From a virus: 33,541 nucleotides of DNA. Position numbers and translations under genes: made by a program. The notes beneath the pieces were generated by a model. That model did no database searches, was not told the DNA's origin, and saw only the letters and a list, made by a program, of their open reading frames with translations. Positions 655-30,502 of the stretch are shown one piece after another; position 1 is the stretch's first letter; the number at the start of each line of letters is the position of its first letter. The DNA is taken from positions 1-33,541 of the IMG/VR virus record IMGVR_UViG_3300030118_006691. One strand, written 5' to 3'.

Positions 655-2234
655 TGACAAGCGCAAGAAACTATGATGTAATTTTATCTGTGGCAAGTGC
701 GTCAGGTTTTGTCCCTGGCAATACTGTTATTGGAGTAACTACAAAAACCACTGGTTTTATTGCGAATGTAAACACAGATACAAAACAGGTCAAAGTTAAA
801 CTTAACAATGTCTTACAAGAGTTTACAGCAAGTGAAACAATTAAGTCTAACACAATAACTATCACCGGCAGTGCAAATGGTTTACTCAATACAACTTCTT
901 TACCTTTTCAATCTAATGTTCGATCTGGTGAAACTACCACTGCAACCTCTACGATAACTTCTATTTCTCCAAGTCCTTTCATTGCAGAAAAAAACGCTTT
1001 TACTCAAAATCCTGTGGTTCGTTTATACGAGGTGTTTTACCCAGGTGAGTGGTATCCTCCTAATGAAGCAGGAAATCCAACTGAGGATGGCACAGGTAGA
1101 ACTTGGCCGAATGATTTTCCTATTAGGTTCGCAGATATTAGGGCGGAACTTGCCGCTGATCTACAATATAATGTAACCTATGATGGCACTTCTTACATTC
1201 CTTTTCCTGTTAACCAGTCTTCTATTGAACAATCTTCCGATGGAAAGGTAAATGAACTTACTCTAGACGTATTTAATGTTGATAATATTATAACAGCTTT
1301 GGTAGAAGACCCATACTTAGTGGGTAACTGTACTACTAATTCGGTTGTTGCTTTCGTAAATGGAGAGGCAGTTCATGGAATTGATCCAAGAACTGTAAAC
1401 GCTAATCCATCAGATGTCGGTAGTGCAGGAAGTGAAGCTTTTGATACTTTGACTCGCGCTAGAGCAAACGGTTTAGCATATAGTGCTGCTGTCGTAGGAG
1501 CGTATGGTAGGTCAAATGCCTCTTTTACAAGAACTCAGTGTGAGATTGTAAATGGTACTTGGCAAGAGGGTAAACCAGATACAAGAGATTTACTTGGTGG
1601 CGCTGTTACAGTAAAAACAACATTCGCAAACTTTTTAGATCATTGGCCTGAGTATAGTAAAATACGTTATGTCGGTGGAGAAAACTATGTAGAGGTTCTT
1701 AATGCTTTACCTTACAGAATTGGAGATAATGTTAAAGTTGAAGGCACTACCACTGAGGCAACTATAACAAAAATTGAAGAGAACAGATTTATCTTTTTGA
1801 GTAATGCTCTCGATTCAAGTGCATCTTCAGAAGATAAATTATTTGTTGTTAATAGTTTGGCAGATACTGAGTCTTATATAGAAGATAGATTCAAGATTGA
1901 TGCATTAGAGTCTCTACAAGAATCTGTCGCAAGCTTTGGCCTTGTATCTTGGCTACAATTTTTTAAACAAGTCACTCCTAAACGTAAATACTATAAGAAT
2001 GTTTGTCAGTGGAAATATAAGGGCGAGGAGTGCCAATACCCTGGTCCTGGAGGGGGTACAATTCCTGGTACATCACTCTCCGCTAATTCAAGTCCAATCA
2101 CAGCAGCTAACGAAGCAGGGTCTACTGCGGCCGATGACGTATGTGGTAAAAATATTCAAGCATGTACCTTGAGAAATAATCAGATTCACTTTGGAGGCTT
2201 TCCTGCGACAGGACGAACTATCCCTAAGCAATAA
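654..2234 (+). CDS. Minor tail protein, lambda gpL-like, with C-terminal Fe-S cysteines
   Basis: Tail-tip protein of the gpL family, which sits under the tail tube and in lambda carries an iron-sulfur cluster in its C-terminal domain. The gpL signature is visible: 'ADIRAELAADLQYNVTYDG' and 'LTLDVFNVDN' in the middle, 'RTQCEIVNGTW', and a C-terminal domain with Cys451, Cys460, Cys497 and Cys504 ending in an 'FGGFP' motif, matching the cysteine pattern known from lambda gpL. At 526 residues it is more than twice lambda gpL (about 232). Residues 1-85 form an extra small beta domain of a type I recognise from marine phage virion proteins, and a similar beta segment lies around 355-405. ATG overlaps the upstream stop by one base. 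The last 44 bases are shared with the radical SAM frame that follows. Confidence 0.85.
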   Translation: MTSARNYDVILSVASASGFVPGNTVIGVTTKTTGFIANVNTDTKQVKVKLNNVLQEFTASETIKSNTITITGSANGLLNTTSLPFQSNVRSGETTTATSTITSISPSPFIAEKNAFTQNPVVRLYEVFYPGEWYPPNEAGNPTEDGTGRTWPNDFPIRFADIRAELAADLQYNVTYDGTSYIPFPVNQSSIEQSSDGKVNELTLDVFNVDNIITALVEDPYLVGNCTTNSVVAFVNGEAVHGIDPRTVNANPSDVGSAGSEAFDTLTRARANGLAYSAAVVGAYGRSNASFTRTQCEIVNGTWQEGKPDTRDLLGGAVTVKTTFANFLDHWPEYSKIRYVGGENYVEVLNALPYRIGDNVKVEGTTTEATITKIEENRFIFLSNALDSSASSEDKLFVVNSLADTESYIEDRFKIDALESLQESVASFGLVSWLQFFKQVTPKRKYYKNVCQWKYKGEECQYPGPGGGTIPGTSLSANSSPITAANEAGSTAADDVCGKNIQACTLRNNQIHFGGFPATGRTIPKQ

Positions 2235-3420
2235 AACAAAAGGATGTATTTTACCTTGGGTTCACTTATTCGGCACCATACGTGGTGATTACCGATTATG
2301 TTGTTATGCAGAGTATGTGGAACCTAATATAAAACTAGGCACTTCAGATCAGTCTTTAACAGATGTTTGGAATGGTAAACCCATGAGAAACATCAGGAAA
2401 GCAATGCTAGCAGGTAAGGTTCCCTATGAATGTGAAAAAGCGTGTTATGATCGAGAAAGTTTAGGCGACAAAAGCAACAGAATTAGTAGCAATATTAGAT
2501 TTCATCACTGGGCTAAACTACAAAAACTCACTAAAGAAGACGGGTCGATTCCTACAAAGCCTATCTATTTAGATATTAGATTCGGAAATCTTTGCAACTT
2601 TAGATGTAGAATGTGCTTGCCCGAATCATCGACCAGCTGGTATAAAGAGGCTAGAGAGATTGACTTTCTCCCTGAGTGGACAGAGACAAAACCCATTGAC
2701 AAATATACAGATAATCAAATATTTTGGGATAGTTTAGATGATATTGCGCCTTACTTGTTAGAGGTTTATTTTGCAGGAGGTGAGCCTTTTGTACAGGATG
2801 GTCACTATAAGCTACTAGAGTACCTAATTAGTAAAGGATACTCAAAGAAAATTACTTTAAGTTACAATACAAACTTAAGTTATGATAAATACAAAAAATT
2901 TGATTTAACAGAGATGTGGGATAATTTTAAAAAGGTTAAGCTATGGCCTAGTTGTGAGGGTATGGGCAAAAGAGGAGAGTATTCTAGAAAAGGCTTAGAT
3001 TGGAAAAAGTTTGAGAGCAATGTTGATAAGTTTTCTAAGCATATTGATACTATTAGTTCAGTTGTAAGTATTTGGAGTATTACAGCGATGCCAGACTTTA
3101 TCTTATGGCTAAAAAAGCGTAACTTAAATTTTTATTTAACCTCCTTAACAGGTCCGCCTTTCGCGTCTGTCACTTGTTTACCAAAAGACGCTAAAATTAC
3201 CATTAACAAAATGTATAAATCATTTATGCAAAAATATGGACATCTTTTAAATGAGCATGAGGTAGATAACATTAAAAATATCCTATCCTATATGAATGGT
3301 AGAGATGACAGCCATGAACTTCAGCTTTTCAAAGCGTTTAATGAAAAACTAGACGAGTCAAGAGACGAAAGCTTTTTGACCACGTATCCAGAGTTTTCTT
3401 CATGGTACAAAAATATATAG
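2191..3420 (+). CDS. Radical SAM protein with N-terminal twitch/SPASM-like domain
   Basis: Radical SAM enzyme: uses a [4Fe-4S] cluster to split S-adenosylmethionine and abstract hydrogen from an unknown substrate, often a peptide in this subfamily. The SAM cluster motif CX3CX2C is at Cys135, Cys139, Cys142 (LCNFRCRMC), and AGGEP (196-199) is the SAM-binding motif. An N-terminal region (Cys19, Cys37, Cys38, Cys81, Cys85; 'PWVHL' then 'RLCCY') looks like an auxiliary-cluster domain placed before, not after, the core. It lies between L-like and NlpC/P60 genes, where lambda has none. The start is unclear: there is no ATG or GTG. TTG at 2191 is the longest choice; CTG at 2203 has GGAGG (2193-2197) five bases before it. 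The conserved part begins near residue 15. The 3' end overlaps the next gene by 19 bases. Confidence 0.87.
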   Translation: MEAFLRQDELSLSNKTKGCILPWVHLFGTIRGDYRLCCYAEYVEPNIKLGTSDQSLTDVWNGKPMRNIRKAMLAGKVPYECEKACYDRESLGDKSNRISSNIRFHHWAKLQKLTKEDGSIPTKPIYLDIRFGNLCNFRCRMCLPESSTSWYKEAREIDFLPEWTETKPIDKYTDNQIFWDSLDDIAPYLLEVYFAGGEPFVQDGHYKLLEYLISKGYSKKITLSYNTNLSYDKYKKFDLTEMWDNFKKVKLWPSCEGMGKRGEYSRKGLDWKKFESNVDKFSKHIDTISSVVSIWSITAMPDFILWLKKRNLNFYLTSLTGPPFASVTCLPKDAKITINKMYKSFMQKYGHLLNEHEVDNIKNILSYMNGRDDSHELQLFKAFNEKLDESRDESFLTTYPEFSSWYKNI

Positions 3421-13118: not shown

Positions 13119-14417
13119 GTGGCGTTAACTAGAGTTACAAATCAAGTCATAGCAGCAAACGCGCTTAGCGCAGAAAAGATTGCAAATGCCACGATTGTAA
13201 GCAGGCATTTAGCTGAACAGTCTGTTGAATTAAAACATCTAGCTTCTAGTGCAAACTCGACTGCAGATGTCTCTGCGATTCAAGATAATACCATTAGACT
13301 CCAAGCTAATCTAGCTGCTAATGTAGCAGCTGCTCAGTCTAATACAACAGCTGTTGAAGCAAGAAGAGTTGCCAATATCGCTGGAGCTGTTTCAACTATT
13401 ACCACAGCAGATCTAACTGCATCTAGAGCGCTCCAATCTGGCTCTGGCGGTAAAATTGAGGTTTCCGCTGTTACCTCAACAGAACTTGGACATCTAGATG
13501 GTGTCACTTCTGCTATCCAAACGCAGATAGACGGAGTTGAATCTAGAAGAGCTGCTAATTTAACTAGCGCCACATTCACAGGAGAAGTGAATGTTAATGA
13601 TGATTTAATCGTTGCTGGAAATTTAACCGTAAGTGGAGATACCACAACTGCTAATTCTATCAACTTGGTTGTCGAAGATAGAATTATTATGCTGGCTAAC
13701 TCTGTAACAGGGTCGCCTTCTCAAGACATTGGAATTTTTATGAATCGTGGAAATCAAGGCAACGCCGCCTTTTTCTATGACGAACAGACCCAATCTTTTG
13801 TAGTAGCAGACACAAAGAGCCCCATGACGAATACGCTAGTGTCTGTCGTTACCTTGTCTAATTTATCAGTTGGTACTCTCTCTTTTAATGGAGCTGACCT
13901 TAATACCGCAATAACTAACAATGTAACTGCCTTAAATAACGAAGACACAGCTTTACAAGCAAGACTAACTACTAATGCGACTGCACTTATAGCAGAAGAT
14001 ACAGCCTTACAAGCTAGAATCACCGCAAACAATACTTTACTACACGCTAATGACTTTATAACATTTACTAGATTGAACGCTAATCTTAATGCTGTGTCTG
14101 CTAACGTTGAGATTCGTAATACACAACTGAATGCAAATATTGATGTAGTTCAAGATAATGTTGCAGCTTTAGGCGGTGGTGGAACTTTCTTTAAACCCTT
14201 TATGAATGTAAACGTAGCACTTGGGACATCTAATGTGTTCTTTGTAGGCCAAAATACGACGTCAGATGATAATGTTCTTACAGTCACGTTAGATGGTATA
14301 GTACAATCTAATTCTGAGTTTGTAATGCATCACTCGAATGATACAATTCAGTTTAAAGACGCTAGTATTCCTAGCGGAACAAAAGTGACAATATTATCAA
14401 TGATAGGCGTTGCATGA
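13119..14417 (+). CDS. Tail fibre / structural protein with repeat motifs
   Basis: Probable fibre or tail-associated structural protein (432 residues). The N-terminus ('MALTRVTNQVIAANALSAEK') and the segment 'ELGHLDGVTSAIQTQIDG' (about 122-140) are of the type I know from marine phage fibres. A beta part follows ('FTGEVNVNDDLIVAGNLTVS'), then two near-identical 'EDTALQAR(L/I)T' repeats around 275-305 and Asn/Ala-rich heptad-like stretches up to 350, consistent with a trimeric coiled coil. The C-terminal 75 residues form a compact beta domain. The start is GTG at 13119, supported by AGGAGA eight bases before. The gene ends in ATGA, sharing four bases with the radical SAM gene, so the two are translationally coupled. 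Confidence 0.75.
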   Translation: MALTRVTNQVIAANALSAEKIANATIVSRHLAEQSVELKHLASSANSTADVSAIQDNTIRLQANLAANVAAAQSNTTAVEARRVANIAGAVSTITTADLTASRALQSGSGGKIEVSAVTSTELGHLDGVTSAIQTQIDGVESRRAANLTSATFTGEVNVNDDLIVAGNLTVSGDTTTANSINLVVEDRIIMLANSVTGSPSQDIGIFMNRGNQGNAAFFYDEQTQSFVVADTKSPMTNTLVSVVTLSNLSVGTLSFNGADLNTAITNNVTALNNEDTALQARLTTNATALIAEDTALQARITANNTLLHANDFITFTRLNANLNAVSANVEIRNTQLNANIDVVQDNVAALGGGGTFFKPFMNVNVALGTSNVFFVGQNTTSDDNVLTVTLDGIVQSNSEFVMHHSNDTIQFKDASIPSGTKVTILSMIGVA

Positions 14418-15403
14418 GGAAATACAGACAACTGACTACAGAATTAACATTTAGATGTAATGCTAAATGTCCTGCTTGTCATAGGCAAAAACCTTTAACG
14501 ATTGACTTGAATGACAAGAAATACACTATCACACTTGATAACTTTAAACAGATTTTTTACCCAGAGTTACTTAAAAATTTAGAGTGGTTGATGTTAAATG
14601 GTAATTTTGGCGATTCTATAATGAATAAGCAGTTTAGACAAATTATTTCTTACGTTAAATCACACGGCACTAAATTAAAAATTCATACAAATGGAGGAAT
14701 TCATGGCGTTGATTACTGGAAAGATGTCGGTTCTATCTTAACTAAACAAGACATAATCAATTTTGATATGGATGGATTAGCTGACACTCATTCAAAGTAT
14801 AGAATCAATACCGAATTTGAAAACGTTTTTAGAAATGCATGTACAGTTATTAATAACTCTGATACTCAGGTGCATTGGAAGTATATTGTATTTGAACATA
14901 ATAGGCATCAAGTTGAAGAGGCTAGAGAGTTAGCAAGAAAACATAATTTTCATACTTTCTCAACTGTCAAAACTTCAAGAGATGTGTTTGCCCCTAAAAG
15001 TGGTAAGTTTGTTCATGCTAAAAAGACAGACGCATATGAAAAAGCTGATAAAGTTATAAGGTGTGTTTGGGATGATTGGGGCAAGTGGTATATATCACCT
15101 GAAGGTTTAGTGTTTAGGTGTTGTTGGACTGGTGGTCATTATTATGACCAAGGCGAAAAGAGGTTTTACTATCCTCCTAAGTTTGAACAAATGTTTAATG
15201 GACTTCATGTTCCTTTAGAAAAAATTCTAAGCTATGAATATTGGACTAAACTACAAAATTATTTGAAAGGTTATGAGCGCTCATTCAAGATGTGCAAGTC
15301 TCAGTGCGGTAAGATTGTTTCTTCTATAGAGAAAGAAGAAGATAATCTTAAAACTGGTAAAAAAACATATTTTGATTCTCACGCTGAAAATAGTCAAAGA
15401 TGA
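14414..15403 (+). CDS. Radical SAM protein with C-terminal twitch/SPASM-like cluster
   Basis: Second radical SAM enzyme of the window (329 residues). The SAM cluster motif CX3CX2C is Cys15, Cys19, Cys22 ('CNAKCPAC'), with 'NGNFGD' in place of GGEP and 'IHTNGG' as the next strand. The C-terminal part holds Cys217, Cys236, Cys237, Cys294 and Cys298 ('IRCVWDDWGKWYISPEG', 'RCCW', 'MCKSQC'), an auxiliary-cluster domain of the twitch/SPASM kind, common in peptide-modifying enzymes. It differs from the first radical SAM gene in length and in where the auxiliary domain lies, so it is not a recent copy. ATG overlaps the fibre stop (ATGA), and its stop overlaps the next small gene the same way. Substrate unknown; the coupled neighbours are the obvious candidates. 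Confidence 0.88.
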   Translation: MRKYRQLTTELTFRCNAKCPACHRQKPLTIDLNDKKYTITLDNFKQIFYPELLKNLEWLMLNGNFGDSIMNKQFRQIISYVKSHGTKLKIHTNGGIHGVDYWKDVGSILTKQDIINFDMDGLADTHSKYRINTEFENVFRNACTVINNSDTQVHWKYIVFEHNRHQVEEARELARKHNFHTFSTVKTSRDVFAPKSGKFVHAKKTDAYEKADKVIRCVWDDWGKWYISPEGLVFRCCWTGGHYYDQGEKRFYYPPKFEQMFNGLHVPLEKILSYEYWTKLQNYLKGYERSFKMCKSQCGKIVSSIEKEEDNLKTGKKTYFDSHAENSQR

Positions 15404-21736: not shown

Positions 21737-22181
21737 GATTAGATTGTTTTTTAACAGCCTCAATCCAGTCATCAAGTTTTGAAACTTTAAAATGACAGCC
21801 AAATGAGTTTATTTCAACATAGAATGGCACATTTGTGTCATCATTAAATGCGACAAAATCTTTTGACCGATTCCACCTAAATATAAGAAGTGGCTTCTTT
21901 TCCATAACTTCTGCTTCACGTATTGTTTGACGCCAAAAGTTAAGTAGGTCTGTTGTTTTAGAGGTTAATAGATTATTCCACTCAATGTTTTTGTAGTGTT
22001 TACATTCAGTAGCATACGGCCACCAAGCAGTGTCATGCGGAGTCCAAATGTCTCCCTTGAGATAGTCTATCGATCCTGATAGAGGTACTCGTCTAAACTC
22101 TTTTCCAAATTCAGATGTCAAATATGTAGCTATTTTCTGTTCGTATGCAGATCCTTTAGCTTTGCTTTTGTTGTGTGCCAT
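21729..22181 (-). CDS. PD-(D/E)XK nuclease, Holliday-junction-resolvase-like
   Basis: Small nuclease-fold protein of 150 residues. The PD-(D/E)XK residues line up as Glu14 ('GSAYEQKIATYL'), Asp44 ('YLKGDIW') and Glu59-x-Lys61 ('ATECKHYKN'), the arrangement of archaeal-type Hjc and phage resolvases. Resolving branched DNA before packaging, or recombination, is the likely role. ATG at 22181 lies in the end of the SGNH-like gene (26-base overlap) with a poor ribosome site, so translation is probably coupled. The substrate is inferred from family only. Confidence 0.72.
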   Translation of the reverse strand: MAHNKSKAKGSAYEQKIATYLTSEFGKEFRRVPLSGSIDYLKGDIWTPHDTAWWPYATECKHYKNIEWNNLLTSKTTDLLNFWRQTIREAEVMEKKPLLIFRWNRSKDFVAFNDDTNVPFYVEINSFGCHFKVSKLDDWIEAVKKQSNLA

Positions 22182-22824
22182 TTAGGTCGTTTAAAACTCT
22201 TTCAGAAAATCTTAAATTATCCTCAAAGCTGAGATGATTAGTAGTATTAACTAACTCAGACTCATAATCATACGGGCCAGAATTGATTAGATTGTTAAGA
22301 CCATAATAATACTCATCGTTATACTTTGAGATGTCATCATGGTAGCGTGGAAAGATGTTTCTGTAAAGTAAATATTTACATTGCAGTTTTGATGTAAGAT
22401 AATTTATGGCCCAGGCTTGATTCTGTGCGCTTAGCCTTTGTGATGATGAGATAAGATAAGACTTAATGTATTGAATAGTTGCATTTCTTACATGAGATGT
22501 AATATTACCTGATGTAATTGTGGGGTTTCTTTTGAAAGGTTTTTCTTTGACTTCATCAATGTTATGTTTAAAATCTTCTATCGTTGCAGGAGGTCCAAAC
22601 TCATCTTCATCTATTTCAAACCTTTCAGCAGCCGTAAGAGAAATAATTACATATGTAGGGTCTAAGTTATCTAGTATATACTGCAACTGATGACAGATAG
22701 CATTGTTTCCACAGCCTACAATAGAAAGATTTACAAGAGGCATTTCTAATTTATCAGCTACCATTGCGGGCCAGGTAGTCCTATCTCCTCCATAACTAAA
22801 ACTTTCACCACAAACTACTAACAT
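22156..22824 (-). CDS. SGNH/GDSL-hydrolase-like protein
   Basis: A 222-residue protein beginning 'MLVVCGESFSYGGDRTTWPA', the block I of SGNH hydrolases with Ser8 as nucleophile. 'NLSIVGCGNNAICHQLQYIL' (about 32-51) gives the Gly and Asn oxyanion-hole blocks, and 'YVIISLTAAERFE' the following strand. A late His ('TTNHLS') may be the catalytic base, but the usual Asp three residues before it is Thr, so activity is uncertain. Proteins like this occur in marine phages next to sugar or amino-acid genes and could remove or transfer acyl groups. ATG 22824 is preferred to TTG 22851 because the family block begins there; it overlaps the amidinotransferase stop by 7 bases. Confidence 0.65.
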   Translation of the reverse strand: MLVVCGESFSYGGDRTTWPAMVADKLEMPLVNLSIVGCGNNAICHQLQYILDNLDPTYVIISLTAAERFEIDEDEFGPPATIEDFKHNIDEVKEKPFKRNPTITSGNITSHVRNATIQYIKSYLISSSQRLSAQNQAWAINYLTSKLQCKYLLYRNIFPRYHDDISKYNDEYYYGLNNLINSGPYDYESELVNTTNHLSFEDNLRFSERVLNDLNGTQQKQS

Positions 22825-23840
22825 TTTCTTTTTACATCCAAAGTTACACAATGAAAACCGCCTGAGATGATTCTATCGTGTCTTAATTCTAAAGGGATTG
22901 AGTCAATGCCGTGCTGTTTAAGTTTAGTTCTGAGTTCAACTTGTTTCTTATCAACTATGGCAAGTTTATCATTTACAGATAAAAAATTCATACCAATCCA
23001 CTCACTAGCACCCCAAGGAAGACCAAAAGGAGGATGTGAGGGAGTAAAACAACTTTCGATCCAAATTTTATCCCATGACTTAAATATTTCAGGCTCGTTT
23101 TCAGGAGTGACTCGAGATGCATTGTAAACTACTAGCCCTTCTCTGACTGGTACTATAGTGCTGTCAAGGTGAGCAAAAGAGTAAAGGTTGTCAGCTATAT
23201 GAACTTTGTACTTATCACCTAAAACCCTCTGTAACCACTCCCCTCCTTTGTAGTTACCAGTATTACTAACTTGATAAAGAATGTCTTCATTGACTCTAAC
23301 ACAATTAGCTGCTTCAAATAATATCTCTTCATTATGTAAAGAAATTACACCATCTGTTTCTTCGACATAATTTTCATCATACAGAATTGGAGTGGGTGCT
23401 TGAAACCAGTTGTATCCTTCTTCATATAGTTTAGTGAATATTTTTCGATAAGCCCAGGTCTCAAATTGTCTATTCCAGTGAGGGGATGGTGTTTCAATAA
23501 GATTATTACCAATAACTAAAGTTAAATCTCTAGGACAGTGATAATGCCAGTTTTTACCGTGCCAATGAGGAGACTTAATTTCTGATTCTGCATATTGGAG
23601 ATCTGGTCTGTGAACAGTTACTCCAAGTTCTTTTAGAGTGTCTGCCAATGTATCTAAATCTTCATTTTGTTCATCAATAATCTGTTGGGGGAAGAATCCT
23701 ACGTATTTTTTAATATAATCTTCAGTATGTTCTGGAAAACAACATTTCATGAAAGCAATATTAAGTTGAGGTATTCCTGAATAATCTGCTACACCAACAA
23801 TAATTTCCTCTAAATCATCCCAATCGTTATTACACGTCAA
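22818..23840 (-). CDS. Amidinotransferase (glycine/inosamine amidinotransferase-like)
   Basis: Guanidino-group-modifying enzyme of the AGAT/StrB family, which moves an amidino group from arginine to an amine acceptor. Visible family blocks: 'CPRDLTLVIGN' (102-111), 'FEAANCVRVNEDILYQVS' (175-192), 'HLDSTIVPVREGLVVYN' with His224 and Asp226, and 'GGFHCVTLDVKRKC' with the nucleophile Cys331. By my alignment the catalytic Asp of human AGAT (Asp254) is Glu176 here, which may alter the substrate or rate. Length (340 residues) fits. The start is TTG 23840, supported by GGGAGA eight bases before it, and it overlaps the aminotransferase-like gene by 11 bases. A role in making a guanidino compound with its neighbours is inference. 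Confidence 0.85.
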   Translation of the reverse strand: MTCNNDWDDLEEIIVGVADYSGIPQLNIAFMKCCFPEHTEDYIKKYVGFFPQQIIDEQNEDLDTLADTLKELGVTVHRPDLQYAESEIKSPHWHGKNWHYHCPRDLTLVIGNNLIETPSPHWNRQFETWAYRKIFTKLYEEGYNWFQAPTPILYDENYVEETDGVISLHNEEILFEAANCVRVNEDILYQVSNTGNYKGGEWLQRVLGDKYKVHIADNLYSFAHLDSTIVPVREGLVVYNASRVTPENEPEIFKSWDKIWIESCFTPSHPPFGLPWGASEWIGMNFLSVNDKLAIVDKKQVELRTKLKQHGIDSIPLELRHDRIISGGFHCVTLDVKRKC

Positions 23841-24771
23841 GTTTCATTCTCCCATCCCAAATTCTTGAAAAACACAATCTATTAGTATTATTACCTCTAT
23901 TATACTGAGGATATTGATTATTGTGATCAATTCCAAAGTATACACAATCTGAAACTTGCAATTCCATCGCCTCACATAGCGCTATCTGTTTTTCTCTATA
24001 TTTATTGTAAGTGTAATCTGCTGAAAACTTTTTCATCATTTCTAGTCCTAGATGACAGCTTAGAATATTAATGTAATTATAGTAAGGCTCATTAATTACA
24101 TACAATTGATCTTCCCATTTTTCTCTCTGTAGTCTGATTCCGACTCTATGAAGCTCGATAGGAAATACTTTAGAAAGAGAAGAGACTATATATTTAATAC
24201 AAGGATGGCTTAAATCGAACTCTAAATCAACTGCTAAGTTTAGGTAAGCTAAATCAATCATTACTGGAACATCTAATTTATCACACTCACATAGCATATC
24301 TTCAAGATATTCGGGTACGCAACCTGTATCAGAGAAGGGAACACTGATTAAAACAACATCATCCTTTGTTATAGGTTCATCCTCAATCCAAGCAAATCTA
24401 CCTTCTGGATACCACAGTCTCGACATCATTTGGTGAAAAAAATATTCACCCTTTGCTAATCTTAATCTACGGTGTGATCTATACCTGATATAAAATTGAT
24501 AAAAGGACTCTGTTGTGCCTTGAGTAAAACACGCTTCATTAAAGTCTTCATAGCCTTTTATTTTAGGAAAAGTTGAAAACATCCACTTTTTATATACAGA
24601 GAAATATTCATTTTTAACTTCTTCCGAATTTTCTTTATTATAGTAATCATTTATAGAAAAATTATTTATGATAGTGTCTCTGTAAGAACACAGTTCGTCA
24701 TCATGCACACTATGTGCTTCTCCAAAAGGTCTATGCCTGTTATTAGGTAAATTAGTATATCTAATAGTCAT
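23830..24771 (-). CDS. PLP-dependent aminotransferase-like protein (fold type I)
   Basis: Probable pyridoxal-phosphate enzyme of 313 residues, class I/II aminotransferase type. Visible: 'TQGTTESFYQFY' (phosphate loop, 83-94), 'VPFSDTGCVPEYLEDML' (equivalent of the 'NPxNPTG' region), Asp173 with Tyr176 in 'PVMIDLAYLNLA' (pyridine-nitrogen Asp), and Lys201 in 'SSLSKVFPIELHRVGIRL' (Schiff base lysine, with Arg209/Arg213 for phosphate). It is shorter than typical enzymes (about 380-400) and seems to lack much of the small C-terminal domain, so activity needs care. Donor and acceptor are unknown. It overlaps the oxygenase-like gene before it and the amidinotransferase after it by 11 bases each. 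Confidence 0.78.
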   Translation of the reverse strand: MTIRYTNLPNNRHRPFGEAHSVHDDELCSYRDTIINNFSINDYYNKENSEEVKNEYFSVYKKWMFSTFPKIKGYEDFNEACFTQGTTESFYQFYIRYRSHRRLRLAKGEYFFHQMMSRLWYPEGRFAWIEDEPITKDDVVLISVPFSDTGCVPEYLEDMLCECDKLDVPVMIDLAYLNLAVDLEFDLSHPCIKYIVSSLSKVFPIELHRVGIRLQREKWEDQLYVINEPYYNYINILSCHLGLEMMKKFSADYTYNKYREKQIALCEAMELQVSDCVYFGIDHNNQYPQYNRGNNTNRLCFSRIWDGRMKLDV

Positions 24772-25294
24772 CTAAAAATCCTGAAAGTTGTAAAGTGAAT
24801 TTATCCTGCATTCCGCAGTTAGCGGAAAGATGAGGAATATCTTGATTAAAGATAAAACCAGTTAACTCTTCCCAGTGAGTAAAAACCTCATCATTAAATT
24901 GAATAAAGTGGCCAAGTTTCCAATCTTCTAGAAAGTAGTTAGCTCTAACCGGCATTCTTGTATCGTTTGGAAATGTTTTACGTAACTTATAAAAAGTATC
25001 TATATGTAGAGGTATAATATTACCTGGTCTTTGCTTGATAATTGATACAGTTTTAATATCCATTTGAGTTTGCTCGCTAAGTGTCTTAAAATCTAGCTCA
25101 TTATCGTTAAAAAACTTTTGGAATATAATAGTATTCCACTCGTTAAAACTATCGGGAAGCCCTCCATAGGGAGAATGTAATTCCTTCATTGCGTTCATTG
25201 AGTGATAGGAGCTGGATAGGCTTCTATAATTTTCCCAATCAATTTCCTTAATTATTGAAGTATCAAAAATGAGTTTATTTACTTTTTTAAGCAT
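24761..25294 (-). CDS. 2OG-Fe(II)-oxygenase/cupin-like protein
   Basis: A 177-residue beta-helix-core protein. 'RPGNIIPLHIDTFYKLR' (89-105) holds the His97-x-Asp99 iron motif, and 'IPHLSANCGMQDKFTLQLSG' (153-172) holds a second His155 followed ten residues later by Lys165, the usual spot for a 2-oxoglutarate-binding basic residue. 'YFLEDWKLGHFIQFND' forms the middle strands. This resembles small aspartyl/asparaginyl-hydroxylase-type oxygenases. The substrate is unknown; its place beside aminotransferase and amidinotransferase genes suggests hydroxylation of an amino acid or of a guanidino compound. It lies three bases after the upstream oxygenase gene and overlaps the downstream gene by 11. 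Confidence 0.62.
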   Translation of the reverse strand: MLKKVNKLIFDTSIIKEIDWENYRSLSSSYHSMNAMKELHSPYGGLPDSFNEWNTIIFQKFFNDNELDFKTLSEQTQMDIKTVSIIKQRPGNIIPLHIDTFYKLRKTFPNDTRMPVRANYFLEDWKLGHFIQFNDEVFTHWEELTGFIFNQDIPHLSANCGMQDKFTLQLSGFLDDY

Positions 25295-25297
25295 TTT

Positions 25298-26401
25298 CTA
25301 CTGTTCCCACGAAAAAGGACCCTTCTTTTCTACTCCCCATGATCTGTACATCTTAATATAGTCTAAATCAGATTCGTTTTCTAAAATCAATCCTTCATTA
25401 GCAAAGTGTAAAATTACCTTATTATTCAATGCTTTATTTAAAAAATAAGATGAGTCATCTGGTAGTTGATAAATACTACAAAAAACCATACCGTTTATAT
25501 CTTGATCCAAATAATGGTCTAAAACAGGCAAGTTATCAAGAAACTCATTTTCATATTGAGTGCCATTATTCTTTATGCCTATCTCTTTAATATAATTGTT
25601 AATTATAGCTCTTTGAAAGTTTTTAGGCCAGAACTTACTTAAGTTATGATTATTTGATAAATATGTTATATAACGCTGATTACTATAGTCTCTTTTTCTT
25701 AGCATAGAATGATCATCTGGGTGCCTAAAGAACCCTCCAGGAAGTCTTCTATAAAATTCCTCTCCTTTAGGTAATACATGCCAATCAAAAGATAACCTAG
25801 TTAAATTAGTCTCATTATTAACATTACCATGAATAATTTCTTGATTAAAGAGATGAGCCTGACCAGGCTCTAGATTAACAGGATAAGCTACTTTTAAACA
25901 CTCATTTTCGAACTTTTCTAAATTCCAACCGTTCTTGATGACGTTTTTTGTTATTTCTTTAGATTTTTTTGTATCAATTACCCACATTGAATTTGTATCG
26001 AAAGCACTTGTAAGAGGCATCCAAATAGTACCTTGGCCTCTTCCATTATCGTAAAATATTCCCTGATGGAATGGTAGTCTTCTAGCAATTTTTTCCTGAT
26101 TAGGGACTACTAAGTTAAGAGTAGGCTGTCTTTTTATCAAAAATGGTTTATTATCAATAAGTTCTGGTACAATTTCTTTAGCGAAAGTAGAGAGTCTTCG
26201 CATCCATTTTTCTTCAGTAGCAAAAAGATTCTGAATAGTAATCGTTAACTCGAATATTTCATGTTCTTTTAATACTTCATGTATTAAGGACAATTCTACA
26301 ACATGCGGCCACTTTTTTTGTACTTCTTCAAGCACCCACTCATTCCAAGGATACTTTTTTAAATTATAATTGATTGTTTTGTTTTCAAAATTTTGATTCA
26401 T
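25298..26401 (-). CDS. 2OG-Fe(II)-oxygenase-like protein with an HxG iron motif
   Basis: A 367-residue protein of the phytanoyl-CoA-hydroxylase/StrG-like 2OG-oxygenase type. The distal block is classical: 'LEPGQAHLFNQEIIHGN' with His191 and Arg202 in 'NLTRLSFDWHV' (iron and 2-oxoglutarate binding). The proximal motif reads 'PFHQGIFYDNGRG', that is His112-x-Gly114, where most members have His-x-Asp/Glu. Loss of that carboxylate is seen in 2OG halogenases, but it may also be a subgroup trait. The C-terminal 140 residues are an additional domain without a recognised match. ATG overlaps the preceding gene by 17 bases. Reaction unknown. Confidence 0.7.
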   Translation of the reverse strand: MNQNFENKTINYNLKKYPWNEWVLEEVQKKWPHVVELSLIHEVLKEHEIFELTITIQNLFATEEKWMRRLSTFAKEIVPELIDNKPFLIKRQPTLNLVVPNQEKIARRLPFHQGIFYDNGRGQGTIWMPLTSAFDTNSMWVIDTKKSKEITKNVIKNGWNLEKFENECLKVAYPVNLEPGQAHLFNQEIIHGNVNNETNLTRLSFDWHVLPKGEEFYRRLPGGFFRHPDDHSMLRKRDYSNQRYITYLSNNHNLSKFWPKNFQRAIINNYIKEIGIKNNGTQYENEFLDNLPVLDHYLDQDINGMVFCSIYQLPDDSSYFLNKALNNKVILHFANEGLILENESDLDYIKMYRSWGVEKKGPFSWEQ

Positions 26402-27515
26402 CTAACATCTCGTGAATTTTCTCAGTTACGTATCTCTTTTTACTAAGCCAAATATTATGGTTATGCTCTAAAACATCTTTTAATTTGTTAATATCAGGTT
26501 TGTTGTTAATGTAAACTTTTAAGGAAAGAAGAGCTTTTTGAACTCTTTTTAAATCATCTGTTTCATTATCGTAGTCTTCATCAAGTATATCAGAAAATGT
26601 CTTGTAACCTAAATGTTTTATTGCTTTAAGAGTGCCTTTTTGCCCTAATGCAATAAAAGGTTTCTTCAAAGCAAAATTTCTATTAATTGCTTCACCTACC
26701 CATACAGCGTTACACGTTAAAATATCTCCTGTGTATACTAGGTTTAAGTCAACTTTTTCAAAAGTTTTAAACAATGAAAGATTATCAAAAAGTTTATCAT
26801 TAGAAGAAAATGATAATTTATAGTCGGGTGCTACAGCAGAGGTTGAGGAAAAAATACTATTAAAATTTTTGGCTTTTTCTTTAGCACTAACAAATCCATA
26901 ATTTAGTAGTTCATGTTTCTCGAGTAAATCTAATACTAAACCTTTATCAGGAGTCTCATAAAAATACTGCATAAAACAGCAATAGTGTCTATTGTCAAAG
27001 TTTTCTAAGTTCTCAAAACTAGTGCTACCATCCCCATAATAGTAATTAAAATGAGCAGCTTTTTGGCTCGGTGCAAACTCACTTAAAACACTAAAGTGGT
27101 CATAGTCATATTTTGAATGTCTGATAAAGTTTGGATTATTTACTGTATGAAATGTTATCATAACAATTTTCTGACCGATTTCTGTATTGTTTATCATAAA
27201 TTCTAAATGATCTAAAATCTCTTGCCTTAAGGGTTCATTAATACATATTAATATTAAACCTCTACCCGAAAGGGCTCCATCTACTACATTTTTAGGTAAA
27301 GCCTTTTTTAATTTATTTTCGTTAAGCATTAATGTATTTAACAAAATCATATTATCTAAAATTATAGGATAAACCCATTTAGTCATTTTGTTGGCAAAGT
27401 AGCTATGAAAATACTCAACTTCATCATCTACATTTAAAAATAGCTCAGACCCATAGAGATTAGGAATCGGACCCTTTACAGGATGAATTTCATCTATAAG
27501 GCATTTAATCGACAT
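26385..27515 (-). CDS. Glycosyltransferase-like protein, paralogue B
   Basis: A 376-residue protein, clearly a tandem paralogue of the upstream gene. Both begin 'LIDxxHxxxGPxPNxYG', share the 'WxYPIxL' and 'LPKxVxD' blocks, and end with a helical tail 'DHNHNIW/DHNYDNF'-like. The C-terminal signature is 'EAINRNFALKKPFIALG' then 'LGYKTFSDILDEDYD' (about 270-310). I know this 'EKT..KPFI..G..TF..DESYD' signature from uncharacterised marine phage proteins that resemble the donor-binding half of GT-B/exostosin-type transferases. The E-K-T triplet is lost in this copy (E-A-I), so it may be inactive or changed. It overlaps paralogue A by 22 bases. Function unproven. Confidence 0.55.
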   Translation of the reverse strand: MSIKCLIDEIHPVKGPIPNLYGSELFLNVDDEVEYFHSYFANKMTKWVYPIILDNMILLNTLMLNENKLKKALPKNVVDGALSGRGLILICINEPLRQEILDHLEFMINNTEIGQKIVMITFHTVNNPNFIRHSKYDYDHFSVLSEFAPSQKAAHFNYYYGDGSTSFENLENFDNRHYCCFMQYFYETPDKGLVLDLLEKHELLNYGFVSAKEKAKNFNSIFSSTSAVAPDYKLSFSSNDKLFDNLSLFKTFEKVDLNLVYTGDILTCNAVWVGEAINRNFALKKPFIALGQKGTLKAIKHLGYKTFSDILDEDYDNETDDLKRVQKALLSLKVYINNKPDINKLKDVLEHNHNIWLSKKRYVTEKIHEMLDESKF

Positions 27516-28639
27516 TTTATTTCATTTTCTAAAAAGGATTTTCTCTTATGAAAATTATCATAATTATGATCAACAATATCTTTTAACTTTTTCTTATCTA
27601 ATCCGTCTTTTTTTACTTGTTTGAGTGATAGTAAGGCTTTGAAGAGTCTTTTTTTAGTGTCTGGTTCAGAGTCATAAGACTCGTCCAAAATTTCGTGAAA
27701 TGTTTCATATCCTAGATTTCTGCAGTTTTTAGCTACACCTTGCCTACCTAAAATAATAAATGGCTTTTTATAGTAAAAATTTCTGCTTGTTTTTTCAGAG
27801 AAGAAAGGATATATACCATCAAAGTCACACTCAACAACTAGATTTAATAAAGACTTATTTAAGGCCTCTTCTGTTTCAACAAAGTTGTAAACACTATTAA
27901 ACTGTGAAAATGTAGGAGTAGTTTTAACCCAAGATGCGGAAGTTTGTAAACTATTGTAAAGCTCTTTAAATTTTTTAGCTTTATCATAACACGTAACAAT
28001 GCCGTCGTCTAATAACTGTAAATCTTGTAAAAGATTTAAAATAACAAACCTTTCTTCGCTTTCGTAGAATGTAAACATAAAACATGTATATAATTTATCA
28101 TTTATACCGTCTAAGGTAGATTTAGGATATTCTCTACTATTTCCAGGTTCATTACTATAGGGAGTATGATCAACTAATTGATTATCGTCATATCTAAATC
28201 CACTTTTTATAGACGGAGTAAATACTTCAACAAAAGTACCTTTTAGTATTCTAGGATGATCTACTTCATGCAAAGTTAAGATCAGAACATTTTTAAATAT
28301 TGGATCGGAATCCATCATATACTTTAAGGTTTCTATTGTACTATCGTAAAGGGGTTCATGGTAGTAAACTATTACTAAGCCTTTACCTTTGTTTATACAA
28401 TCAAATACTTTTTTAGGTAATATTTTTTTAAACTCTGGTTTACATGATACATAACTTTCTGGACTTAAGGTAGCAGGAAGAACTATTGGATAAATCCATT
28501 TTTCTATTTCATCAGCAAAATAGGATGATCTTATCGTCGTGTTATGTTCGAGTTCTGGTGGTACAGGTAATTGACCGTAAAAATTAGGAACAGGACCGTC
28601 ATCTCGGTGTACATGATCTATCAATACATTAATATTCAT
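27494..28639 (-). CDS. Glycosyltransferase-like protein, paralogue A
   Basis: First of a tandem pair (381 residues). The C-terminal signature is intact: 'PFFSEKTSRNFYYKKPFIIL' then 'LGYETFHEILDESYD' (about 278-320), which in other proteins lies in the donor-binding part of GT-B-like transferases. The N-terminal half has alternating strands and helices ('KGLVIVYYHEPLYDSTIETL', 'NVLILTLHEVDHPRI') consistent with a Rossmann-like domain. Transfer of a sugar is plausible but not shown. The ATG lies 11 bases inside the end of phoH. Duplication followed by unequal change in the second copy suggests a heteromer or two different substrates. Confidence 0.58.
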   Translation of the reverse strand: MNINVLIDHVHRDDGPVPNFYGQLPVPPELEHNTTIRSSYFADEIEKWIYPIVLPATLSPESYVSCKPEFKKILPKKVFDCINKGKGLVIVYYHEPLYDSTIETLKYMMDSDPIFKNVLILTLHEVDHPRILKGTFVEVFTPSIKSGFRYDDNQLVDHTPYSNEPGNSREYPKSTLDGINDKLYTCFMFTFYESEERFVILNLLQDLQLLDDGIVTCYDKAKKFKELYNSLQTSASWVKTTPTFSQFNSVYNFVETEEALNKSLLNLVVECDFDGIYPFFSEKTSRNFYYKKPFIILGRQGVAKNCRNLGYETFHEILDESYDSEPDTKKRLFKALLSLKQVKKDGLDKKKLKDIVDHNYDNFHKRKSFLENEIKCRLNAL

Positions 28640-29336: not shown

Positions 29337-29606
29337 TTAATTCCTTTTTAAGAAAGTGTCAGGGATATCTAAAGTATTTATATACTTTACAAGGTCATTA
29401 TAACCTCCAACAACTTTTCCATCAATGATTATTTGTGGAACTGATCTTGCATCGGGGACCATTTCCAGTAATTGTTCTCTAGACCAATCTTGGCCTATTA
29501 GTCTCTCTTCAAATTCAATATTATTATCTTTTAAAAGGTGCTTTGCTTTTAAACAAAAAGCACAATTTGTTTTGCTCCAAACAATTACCTTAGTTTGTTT
29601 TTCCAT
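29337..29606 (-). CDS. Glutaredoxin
   Basis: An 89-residue thiol-disulfide protein with a dithiol active site Cys15-Ala-Phe-Cys18, the cis-proline block 'ARSVPQIIIDGKVVGGYND' and the usual beta-alpha order. It most likely re-reduces the C-terminal cysteine pair of the ribonucleotide reductase encoded in the same operon, as phage T4 glutaredoxin does. ATG overlaps the end of the epimerase gene by 22 bases. Confidence 0.93.
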   Translation of the reverse strand: MEKQTKVIVWSKTNCAFCLKAKHLLKDNNIEFEERLIGQDWSREQLLEMVPDARSVPQIIIDGKVVGGYNDLVKYINTLDIPDTFLKRN

Positions 29607-30502
29607 ATTTCAATTGTCCTATCTAAACCATCATTTAAAGTAACTTTAGGCTCCCAGCCTAATTTTTTGGTAATTAGCTTATTATTTGAATTTAGCCAAT
29701 AAATTTCTCCAGCTCTAAACAGTTTTGTATCCCAATTTATCTTGCCTTTCCAGTTAAGCTTTTCGGCAATCAGAGTAGCATAGTCTTTTATTTTGATTGG
29801 ATTGTCTGGTCCTATGGTAAATATATTTCCATCATTACATTTTTCAGGATTATTTATAACTGAAAGCCAAGCATCAATCATATCATCAACATAAATGAAG
29901 TTTCTAAAAGGTTCACTATACCCTAGATTACATTCATCAGGATTGTTTAGCATTTGAGATATAATTTGTTCTGTCACAAAAAACGCATTGTCTTTTCTGC
30001 CATAACAATTTGTCTGTCTTAACGCAGTAAAGGGCAGTCCCAAACATCTGTTTGCGTACTCTAGATACTTTTCACAAGCATACTTAGCAACTGCATAGGG
30101 AGCGTTGGGGTTAGGTAGTGTGTTCTCGTCAAAGGCTATAAAATTATCAGGAATTCCTTTTTTCTCAACTTCGTCAGAAATCGGTTGCCATCCATACACT
30201 TCCATTGTGCTAGCGAATACAAAATTTTTAAGATTTTTAACTTTTGTTGCAGCCTCAATAAGATTCACAGTGCCTACGTAATTTACTTCGCTAAAAGTAA
30301 TTTGCTCATAAAAGCTCTGTTCAACTTCAGTCCGTGCAGCTAAGTGGACTATGATATCTGGACTATGCGCTAATACTTCTCTAGCTACTGCATCATGATC
30401 TCGTAAGTCACTTTTTAGCTCGTGTACAAAATGGCTTCGTTTAAGTTCAGGAGTTATATGTTGACCTAAAAATCCAGAGGCTCCTGTAATTAATATTTTC
30501 AT
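29585..30502 (-). CDS. NAD-dependent sugar-nucleotide epimerase/dehydratase
   Basis: Extended short-chain dehydrogenase of 305 residues acting on nucleotide sugars. NAD-binding 'ITGASGFLGQHI' (5-16), 'VHLAART' (52-58), 'FASTMEVYG' (96-104) and the catalytic Tyr136-x-x-x-Lys140 in 'APYAVAKYACEKY' are present, followed by 'LRQTNCYG' and 'FRNFIYVDDMIDAW', typical for UDP-glucose-4-epimerase or dTDP-glucose-dehydratase relatives. It may supply sugars to the glycosyltransferase-like proteins of this operon. ATG shares one base with the mazG stop. Confidence 0.9.
   Translation of the reverse strand: MKILITGASGFLGQHITPELKRSHFVHELKSDLRDHDAVAREVLAHSPDIIVHLAARTEVEQSFYEQITFSEVNYVGTVNLIEAATKVKNLKNFVFASTMEVYGWQPISDEVEKKGIPDNFIAFDENTLPNPNAPYAVAKYACEKYLEYANRCLGLPFTALRQTNCYGRKDNAFFVTEQIISQMLNNPDECNLGYSEPFRNFIYVDDMIDAWLSVINNPEKCNDGNIFTIGPDNPIKIKDYATLIAEKLNWKGKINWDTKLFRAGEIYWLNSNNKLITKKLGWEPKVTLNDGLDRTIEIWKNKLR

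Follow-up and report, generated by a model that had tools for sequence, protein, structure and literature searches.

Does a phage protein with the motifs of a 2-oxoglutarate (2OG) oxygenase, in which glycine stands where the iron-binding aspartate is expected, halogenate its substrate, or does it serve another chemistry? The question is raised by a 367-aa protein encoded on the minus strand of the virus record IMGVR_UViG_3300030118_006691, whose complete 33,541 nucleotides (hereafter the window) were analysed. A first-pass annotation had noted a proximal His112-x-Gly114 motif together with a standard distal block of His191 and Arg202. Direct reading of the codons bears this out, the proximal motif being His112-Gln113-Gly114, and His112, Gly114, His191 and Arg202 are fixed in the phage relatives. 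The left arm of this 33.5-kb virus record carries tail genes, and its right part genes for ribonucleotide reductase, MazG, PhoH, glutaredoxin and ThyX. The tail-gene module also contains radical-SAM PHROG matches at 2191-3420 and 14414-15403 (phrog_14086, phrog_21308), whose products perhaps modify a virion protein.

Domain organization and predicted structure of the target protein

The target protein found no family match in Pfam or PHROGs. Its N-terminal part is related to the NCBIfam family TIGR04324 and its C-terminal part to TIGR04323/LIC12192 (Table 1). By score the target falls outside TIGR04324 (77.2 against a cut-off of 150 bits), as do the phage relatives L048, L104, L089 and L130, and it has HxG at the position of the HxD motif that is common to all members of the family examined. 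It likewise stays below the TIGR04323 cut-off of 55 bits with 41.2 bits, a threshold that the relative L130 exceeds with 64.2 bits. In the Pelagibacterales genomes read, a LIC12192-like gene is located directly downstream of the oxygenase gene; since the two genes adjoin there, the phage protein is, on the evidence of homology, a fusion of two partners that are encoded by adjacent genes in bacteria. The target oxygenase may also, we suppose, be akin to StrG.

Table 1. Position of the target protein, its motif residues and domains, and the neighbouring genes in the window.
Feature	Position (bp)	Strand	Evidence or conservation
Two-domain protein, HxG 2OG-oxygenase domain and LIC12192-like domain	25298..26401	minus	367 aa, ATG start
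2OG-oxygenase domain, TIGR04324 relative	25784..26296	minus	residues 36-206 as matched; 77.2 bits, E 1.4e-21, NCBIfam cut-off 150
His112, predicted proximal iron ligand	26066..26068	minus	89/89 distinct sequences
Gly114, replaces iron-binding Asp	26060..26062	minus	Gly in 89/89 distinct phage sequences; Asp in 26/26 cellular rows
Asp118, unconserved	26048..26050	minus	Asp in 13/89 distinct sequences
Glu188, 3 residues N-terminal of distal His, phage clade only	25838..25840	minus	Glu in 90/90; acidic in 0/26 cellular rows
His191, predicted distal iron ligand	25829..25831	minus	90/90
Arg202, presumed 2OG-binding Arg	25796..25798	minus	90/90 phage; 26/26 cellular rows
Asp206 (Arg202+4), possible substrate contact	25784..25786	minus	Asp in 90/90 phage; Asn in 26/26 cellular; Asp in 2/2 distant HxD/HxE relatives
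C-terminal domain, TIGR04323/LIC12192 relative, predicted serine-recombinase-like fold	25352..25663, residues 247-350 as matched (about 25301-25696)	minus	41.2 bits, cut-off 55
Cassette gene 2, small 2OG-oxygenase-like protein, normal H97-x-D99 and H155	24761..25294	minus	13/21 target clusters
Cassette gene 3, fold-type I PLP enzyme, invariant L-S-K201	23830..24771	minus	PF00155 E 2.5e-4; 14/21 clusters
Cassette gene 4, amidinotransferase closest to StrB1	22818..23840	minus	profile vs PDB 1bwd 401.6 bits, E 2.5e-119; 15/21 clusters
NAD-dependent sugar epimerase/dehydratase-like gene	29585..30502	minus	PF01370 E 8.8e-41; relatives adjoin target in L048, L060, L125, L140

The AF2 model of the full-length target (pLDDT 90.0, pTM 0.88) has the predicted fold of a 2OG oxygenase. 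A Foldseek search of the PDB placed chains of the CurA halogenase at its first five positions (best E 1.9e-09) and SyrB2 at rank 25. VIA-align ranked PtlH first (Z 13.9, rmsd 3.4, 204 residues aligned), and PtlH, MysH, GriE and other hydroxylases are present among the 50 matches listed, from which CurA and SyrB2 are absent. As judged from the model, the structural ranking does not separate halogenase from hydroxylase, and the Foldseek order headed by CurA is weak evidence. A sequence search of the solved structures gave no useful match to the target, and none to a solved halogenase. Foldseek comparison with viral predicted structures returned just other 2OG-oxygenase-like proteins and a few recombinase-like matches.

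When folded alone, the C-terminal domain (pLDDT 87.8) found the catalytic domains of serine recombinases as its top matches (Foldseek E 8.7e-05), among them PhiC31 integrase (Z 12.8, rmsd 3.5, 120 residues aligned), and no sequence match to the recombinases of Pfam or the PDB. A serine-recombinase catalytic fold is thus predicted for a LIC12192-type domain, on which the family name of TIGR04323 is silent.

Conservation of Gly114 in phage relatives

Scans of IMG/VR returned 13, 95 and 218 relatives; from the two larger scans the best 80 of 95 and the best 80 of 218 were kept, and 139 loci were fetched, corresponding to 90 distinct sequences. One of these stops short of residue 114, so that 89 cover it, and one relative (L078) carries a stop codon. 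An early alignment comprised 78 of 80 loci, two same-looking copies being left out. From the third scan 30 of the 80 loci were read first, the rest being repeats of earlier contigs, and the later count took in all 139.

The comparison of residue 114 in close homologues, which the annotation had proposed as a check, gave glycine in all 89 distinct covering sequences. Every one of those 89 also has His112, and no variation is seen at His191, Arg202, Gln187, Glu188 and Asp206 in 90/90. The result is not built into the search, because the patterns of the third scan omit residue 114; sequences found only by such patterns have glycine in 22 of the 22 that cover it. Identity among the phage representatives falls as low as 39% with Gly114 kept, and its occurrence in every covering sequence rules out chance or sequencing error. 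Across the loci compared, Gly114 is a constant feature of a single phage clade.

The first-pass annotation had also allowed for a family trait with another ligand, for example Asp118. The trait stands, at the level of the clade, and the ligand does not: position 118 is variable (N26 K23 G14 D13 S11 Q2 among the 89 distinct sequences), and an aspartate present in just 13 of them is ruled out as iron ligand for want of conservation. A true HxD motif on a different strand of the fold, named by the annotation as grounds for abandoning its proposal, found no candidate either, as no other conserved HxD column is seen in the phage alignment.

Comparison with cellular relatives

A probe sequence brought in 70 cellular and two viral loci. 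All 72 of them have H-x-D, 29 (hand count) having come through patterns without that motif. Of 385 genomes searched by HMM in the class to which the Pelagibacteraceae genome G001 belongs, 29 scored above the cut-off, and H-x-D is present in 31/31 distinct loci (30 read from the class search and one SAR11 locus), a count that mostly excludes the weak matches for which there was no locus. The phage profile was taken to several further sets: for G001, 398 genomes from its phylum, 162 from its order and 52 from its family; for G003, which is an Aequorivita MAG, 395 from its phylum; and for G004, 296 from its phylum. These genome searches returned weak or partial relatives at most, and those read have HAD, HSD, HVD, HKD, HRD and, in a SAR11 paralogue, HRE; the 395-genome search, which gave no match at all, is therefore uninformative on residue 114. 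The HxE paralogue (L226 670-1422, on G001:C5 of the SAR11 genome) has an FHRE motif and adjoins another family member. No relative of the target was found in the cultured phages and plasmids searched (E 0.3 at best for L048) or in a first scan of genome contigs.

A joint alignment and tree were made from 50 chosen rows, of which 22 are phage sequences, 26 are of the cellular type (one of them, L213, from a viral contig) and two are distant. Column 114 is Gly in 22/22 phage rows, Asp in 26/26 cellular-type rows and Asp or Glu in the two distant ones. In this unrooted tree a long branch with support 95/97 separates the phage rows from the others. Because all examined cellular relatives keep Asp or Glu at this position, the glycine is read as a replacement favoured by selection within a single clade, not as decay. 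The proposal that glycine takes the place of the carboxylate, leaving an open iron site, is thereby sustained at the level of aligned residues, Gly114 falling in the column of the aspartate of its relatives.

Other positions differ as well. Asn119 of the phage clade corresponds to Asp or Glu in 25/26 cellular rows, and Glu165 is specific to the clade bar one cellular row. Asp206 was considered as a compensating ligand and is ruled out, since it occurs beside HxD or HxE in the distant relatives. The mean net charge of residues 105-131 is -3.0 in the 26 cellular rows versus +3.1 in the 22 phage rows, with the whole-domain charge equal in both groups (-0.018 and -0.016 per residue).

The gene cassette and its distribution

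Clustering of the target at 75% identity gave 21 groups, which the window enters as a cropped 3.5-kb locus. Besides the amidinotransferase, the PLP enzyme and the HxD oxygenase (Table 1), flank genes are common to at most six groups each. Gene order and orientation of the cassette vary between phages, so that it does not belong to one conserved phage backbone. These comparisons point to a mobile, guanidino-type cassette that is usually the companion of the target gene in aquatic phages, and it is the best clue to the target's substrate.

The amidinotransferase is closer to StrB1 (401.6 bits) than to AGAT (254 bits). Its full-length homology and the residues His224, Asp226 and Cys331, which we take to be catalytic and which are invariant in 13/13 sequences, place it in the StrB1/AGAT family. 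Alignment A6 does not include the locus L130, which has a stop codon. The PLP protein has only weak kinship to HisC. No homologue of the amidinotransferase, the PLP enzyme or the HxD oxygenase was found in 87 cellular TIGR04324 loci.

Some lineages that bear the enzyme (the L025, L082 and L104 groups) have no cassette within the fetched flanks. Sugar-type genes are often nearby in these cases: L082 has an epimerase together with a gene that weakly matches glycosyltransferases, and L025 a UDP-glucose dehydrogenase. In L137, where the HxD oxygenase alone represents the cassette, an epimerase and a DegT-type gene are found, along with a weak match to a glycosyltransferase. Among cultured phages, relatives of the amidinotransferase are annotated in Campylobacter phages and in the Synechococcus phage S-SCSM2R; in the latter, a gene for a 2OG oxygenase lies ahead of the amidinotransferase. 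The S-SCSM2R region (L230 1-18599) encodes, besides the amidinotransferase, several 2OG oxygenases, a radical-SAM maturase, glycosyltransferases and a PrnA-annotated gene.

Several other genes lie near the target. Adjacent genes at 26385-27515 and 27494-28639 encode proteins of 376 and 381 aa that resemble each other and match no Pfam, NCBIfam or PHROG family of note; in several of the phage groups, relatives of these two adjoin the target. Immediately downstream of the amidinotransferase gene, the window encodes a 231-aa protein (22156-22851; Pfam DUF6473 at best, E 0.045) that is found in 3/21 groups and whose start resembles the SGNH/GDSL hydrolase motif. In the L082 phage group a membrane protein of the Bax1-inhibitor family (7105-7779 of L082; PF01027, E 4.5e-55) directly follows the target.

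Possible halogenation and alternative activities

The target combines H112-x-G114 with H191 and the presumed 2OG-binding R202, the motif arrangement of the Fe/2OG halogenases (HxG/HxA...H plus Arg), and its AF2 model has their fold. From ligands and glycine that are fixed over a divergent clade we infer that the enzyme is active and that two histidines make up its iron centre. Our tentative preference, held at somewhat less than even confidence, is that such an active Fe(II)/2OG enzyme, derived from the HxD oxygenases of the sporadic carbohydrate clusters, halogenates a guanidino-type intermediate of the cassette. The target, which is fused to the usual partner protein of these bacterial cluster oxygenases, would descend from them; its iron would be bound by two histidines only, and 2-oxoglutarate would be its cosubstrate. 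The cassette of StrB1-like amidinotransferase, PLP enzyme, HxD oxygenase and target would yield a small molecule, a sugar or a glycan decoration that bears a guanidine group. A halide would occupy the site left by the aspartate, and the ferryl intermediate would chlorinate or brominate an intermediate, cationic and perhaps of guanidino type, at an aliphatic carbon. The positive charge around the open site favours the binding of an anion there. The new Glu188 speaks against an anion if it faces the metal, and Asp206 would under the same condition be equally unfavourable to halide; a cationic guanidino substrate would suit both residues. The want of a sequence match to any solved halogenase, and the cassette's absence from the fetched flanks of some lineages that retain the enzyme, also weigh against halogenation. 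In BesD, to go by the title of work on it, halide and cationic substrate reportedly bind together. The HXG/A motif has been used to mine Fe/2OG halogenases, with a warning of false positives in the sections available of the two sources (PMC11186838, PMC12871659).

The main competitor is a hydroxylase resembling human AspH (or a desaturase or epimerase), in which the two-histidine iron would keep a water, held by the second shell, in the open position and the cassette intermediate would be hydroxylated. We consider this a serious possibility of lower probability, halogenation being slightly favoured over it. AspH provides the precedent of an HXG...H enzyme that hydroxylates, a motif that the target shares; as described in the portions available of two papers, its D721, four residues before the distal H725, stabilises the water, halogenation does not occur, and FIH with Asp changed to Gly retains some activity (PMC10947486, PMC13168262). 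Gln187 and Glu188, which precede His191 and are fixed in 90/90 sequences, are candidates for such a second shell. At the position of D721 the target has Gln187 and not an acid, the glutamate being at His-3; glutamine is found there also in 18/26 HxD cellular relatives, and the shift to a positive charge near the open site counts against the AspH-like mechanism as well.

An ordinary hydroxylase with another carboxylate on the iron, whether supplied by Glu188 as third ligand, by the substrate or by the second domain, is unlikely. Position 188 is Glu throughout the phage clade and acidic in none of the 26 cellular rows, so that this clade-specific residue could change the metal site, and the nearly clade-specific Glu165 lends the idea some further weight. 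To our knowledge, His-3 is not a ligand position in the 2OG-oxygenase fold, and both Asp118, by its poor conservation, and Asp206, by its presence beside intact HxD or HxE motifs, argue against a replacement. Very improbable is a metal-free oxygenase domain with a binding or scaffolding role in the cassette: a missing metal ligand is a usual first sign of a pseudoenzyme, but decay would not spare both histidines, the 2OG arginine and the whole motif block, which are fixed in 89-90 distinct sequences.

Halogenation remains our preferred reading. Its fuller form is somewhat more doubtful: a four-gene guanidino cassette spread among marine and freshwater phages, with an Fe/2OG halogenase of independent origin (Asp to Gly in a carbohydrate-cluster oxygenase, fused to a resolvase fold), which might lead to a chlorinated guanidino compound or glycan in infected cells.

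Relation to published work and to known systems

In the open-access literature, searches for 'sporadic carbohydrate cluster', TIGR04324, LIC12192/LIC12193, or StrG with streptomycin and oxygenase found nothing, and searches for phage with inosamine or with halogenase gave, in titles and the beginnings of abstracts, nothing on this cassette. A virus-encoded gene of the creatine pathway and a glycine amidinotransferase entry are mentioned in excerpts of two reports, and these do not concern this cassette (PMC11360552, PMC8226683). The viral halogenases in the available text of a further source are flavin-dependent (PMC10452541). Neither the fold nor the two motif chemistries are new; in the accessible parts of the open-access literature we found no description of an HxG clade in an HxD family, of the fusion or of the guanidino cassette.

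A natural switch from HxD to HxG, fixed in one large clade beside HxD sisters, offers a test case for halogenation versus hydroxylation in Fe/2OG enzymes. If the target halogenates, it would be a non-flavin phage halogenase with a new class of substrate. Whatever its chemistry, the recurrence of a cassette of StrB1-like amidinotransferase, PLP enzyme and dual oxygenases in unrelated aquatic phages points to a guanidino compound or modification made by phages, of which the literature searches gave no description.

Among known systems, the TIGR04324 bacterial oxygenases are homologous to the target over residues 36-206 and share the columns of both histidines, the arginine, Trp127 and Asn196; they differ in having HxD and a separate gene in cells, where the phage target has HxG and a fusion. 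The C-terminal domain is homologous to TIGR04323/LIC12192 (41 bits; 64 bits in L130), from which it is set apart by its fusion to the oxygenase in phages and by a score below the cut-off for the copy in the window. With the Fe/2OG halogenases CurA Hal, SyrB2, WelO5, BesD and AdaV the target has in common the HxG/A...H motif, the 2OG-oxygenase fold and the presumed 2OG arginine; it differs by the added resolvase-fold domain and by the lack of detectable sequence kinship in the PDB set, and the joint alignment suggests that it arose from an HxD lineage separately from them. Human AspH (aspartate/asparagine beta-hydroxylase) resembles the target in its HXG...H two-histidine iron site and differs in the second shell, with Asp at His-4 where the target has Gln. 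The StrB1 inosamine-phosphate amidinotransferase (1bwd), finally, is matched over its full length by the neighbouring gene product, which is encoded by a phage.
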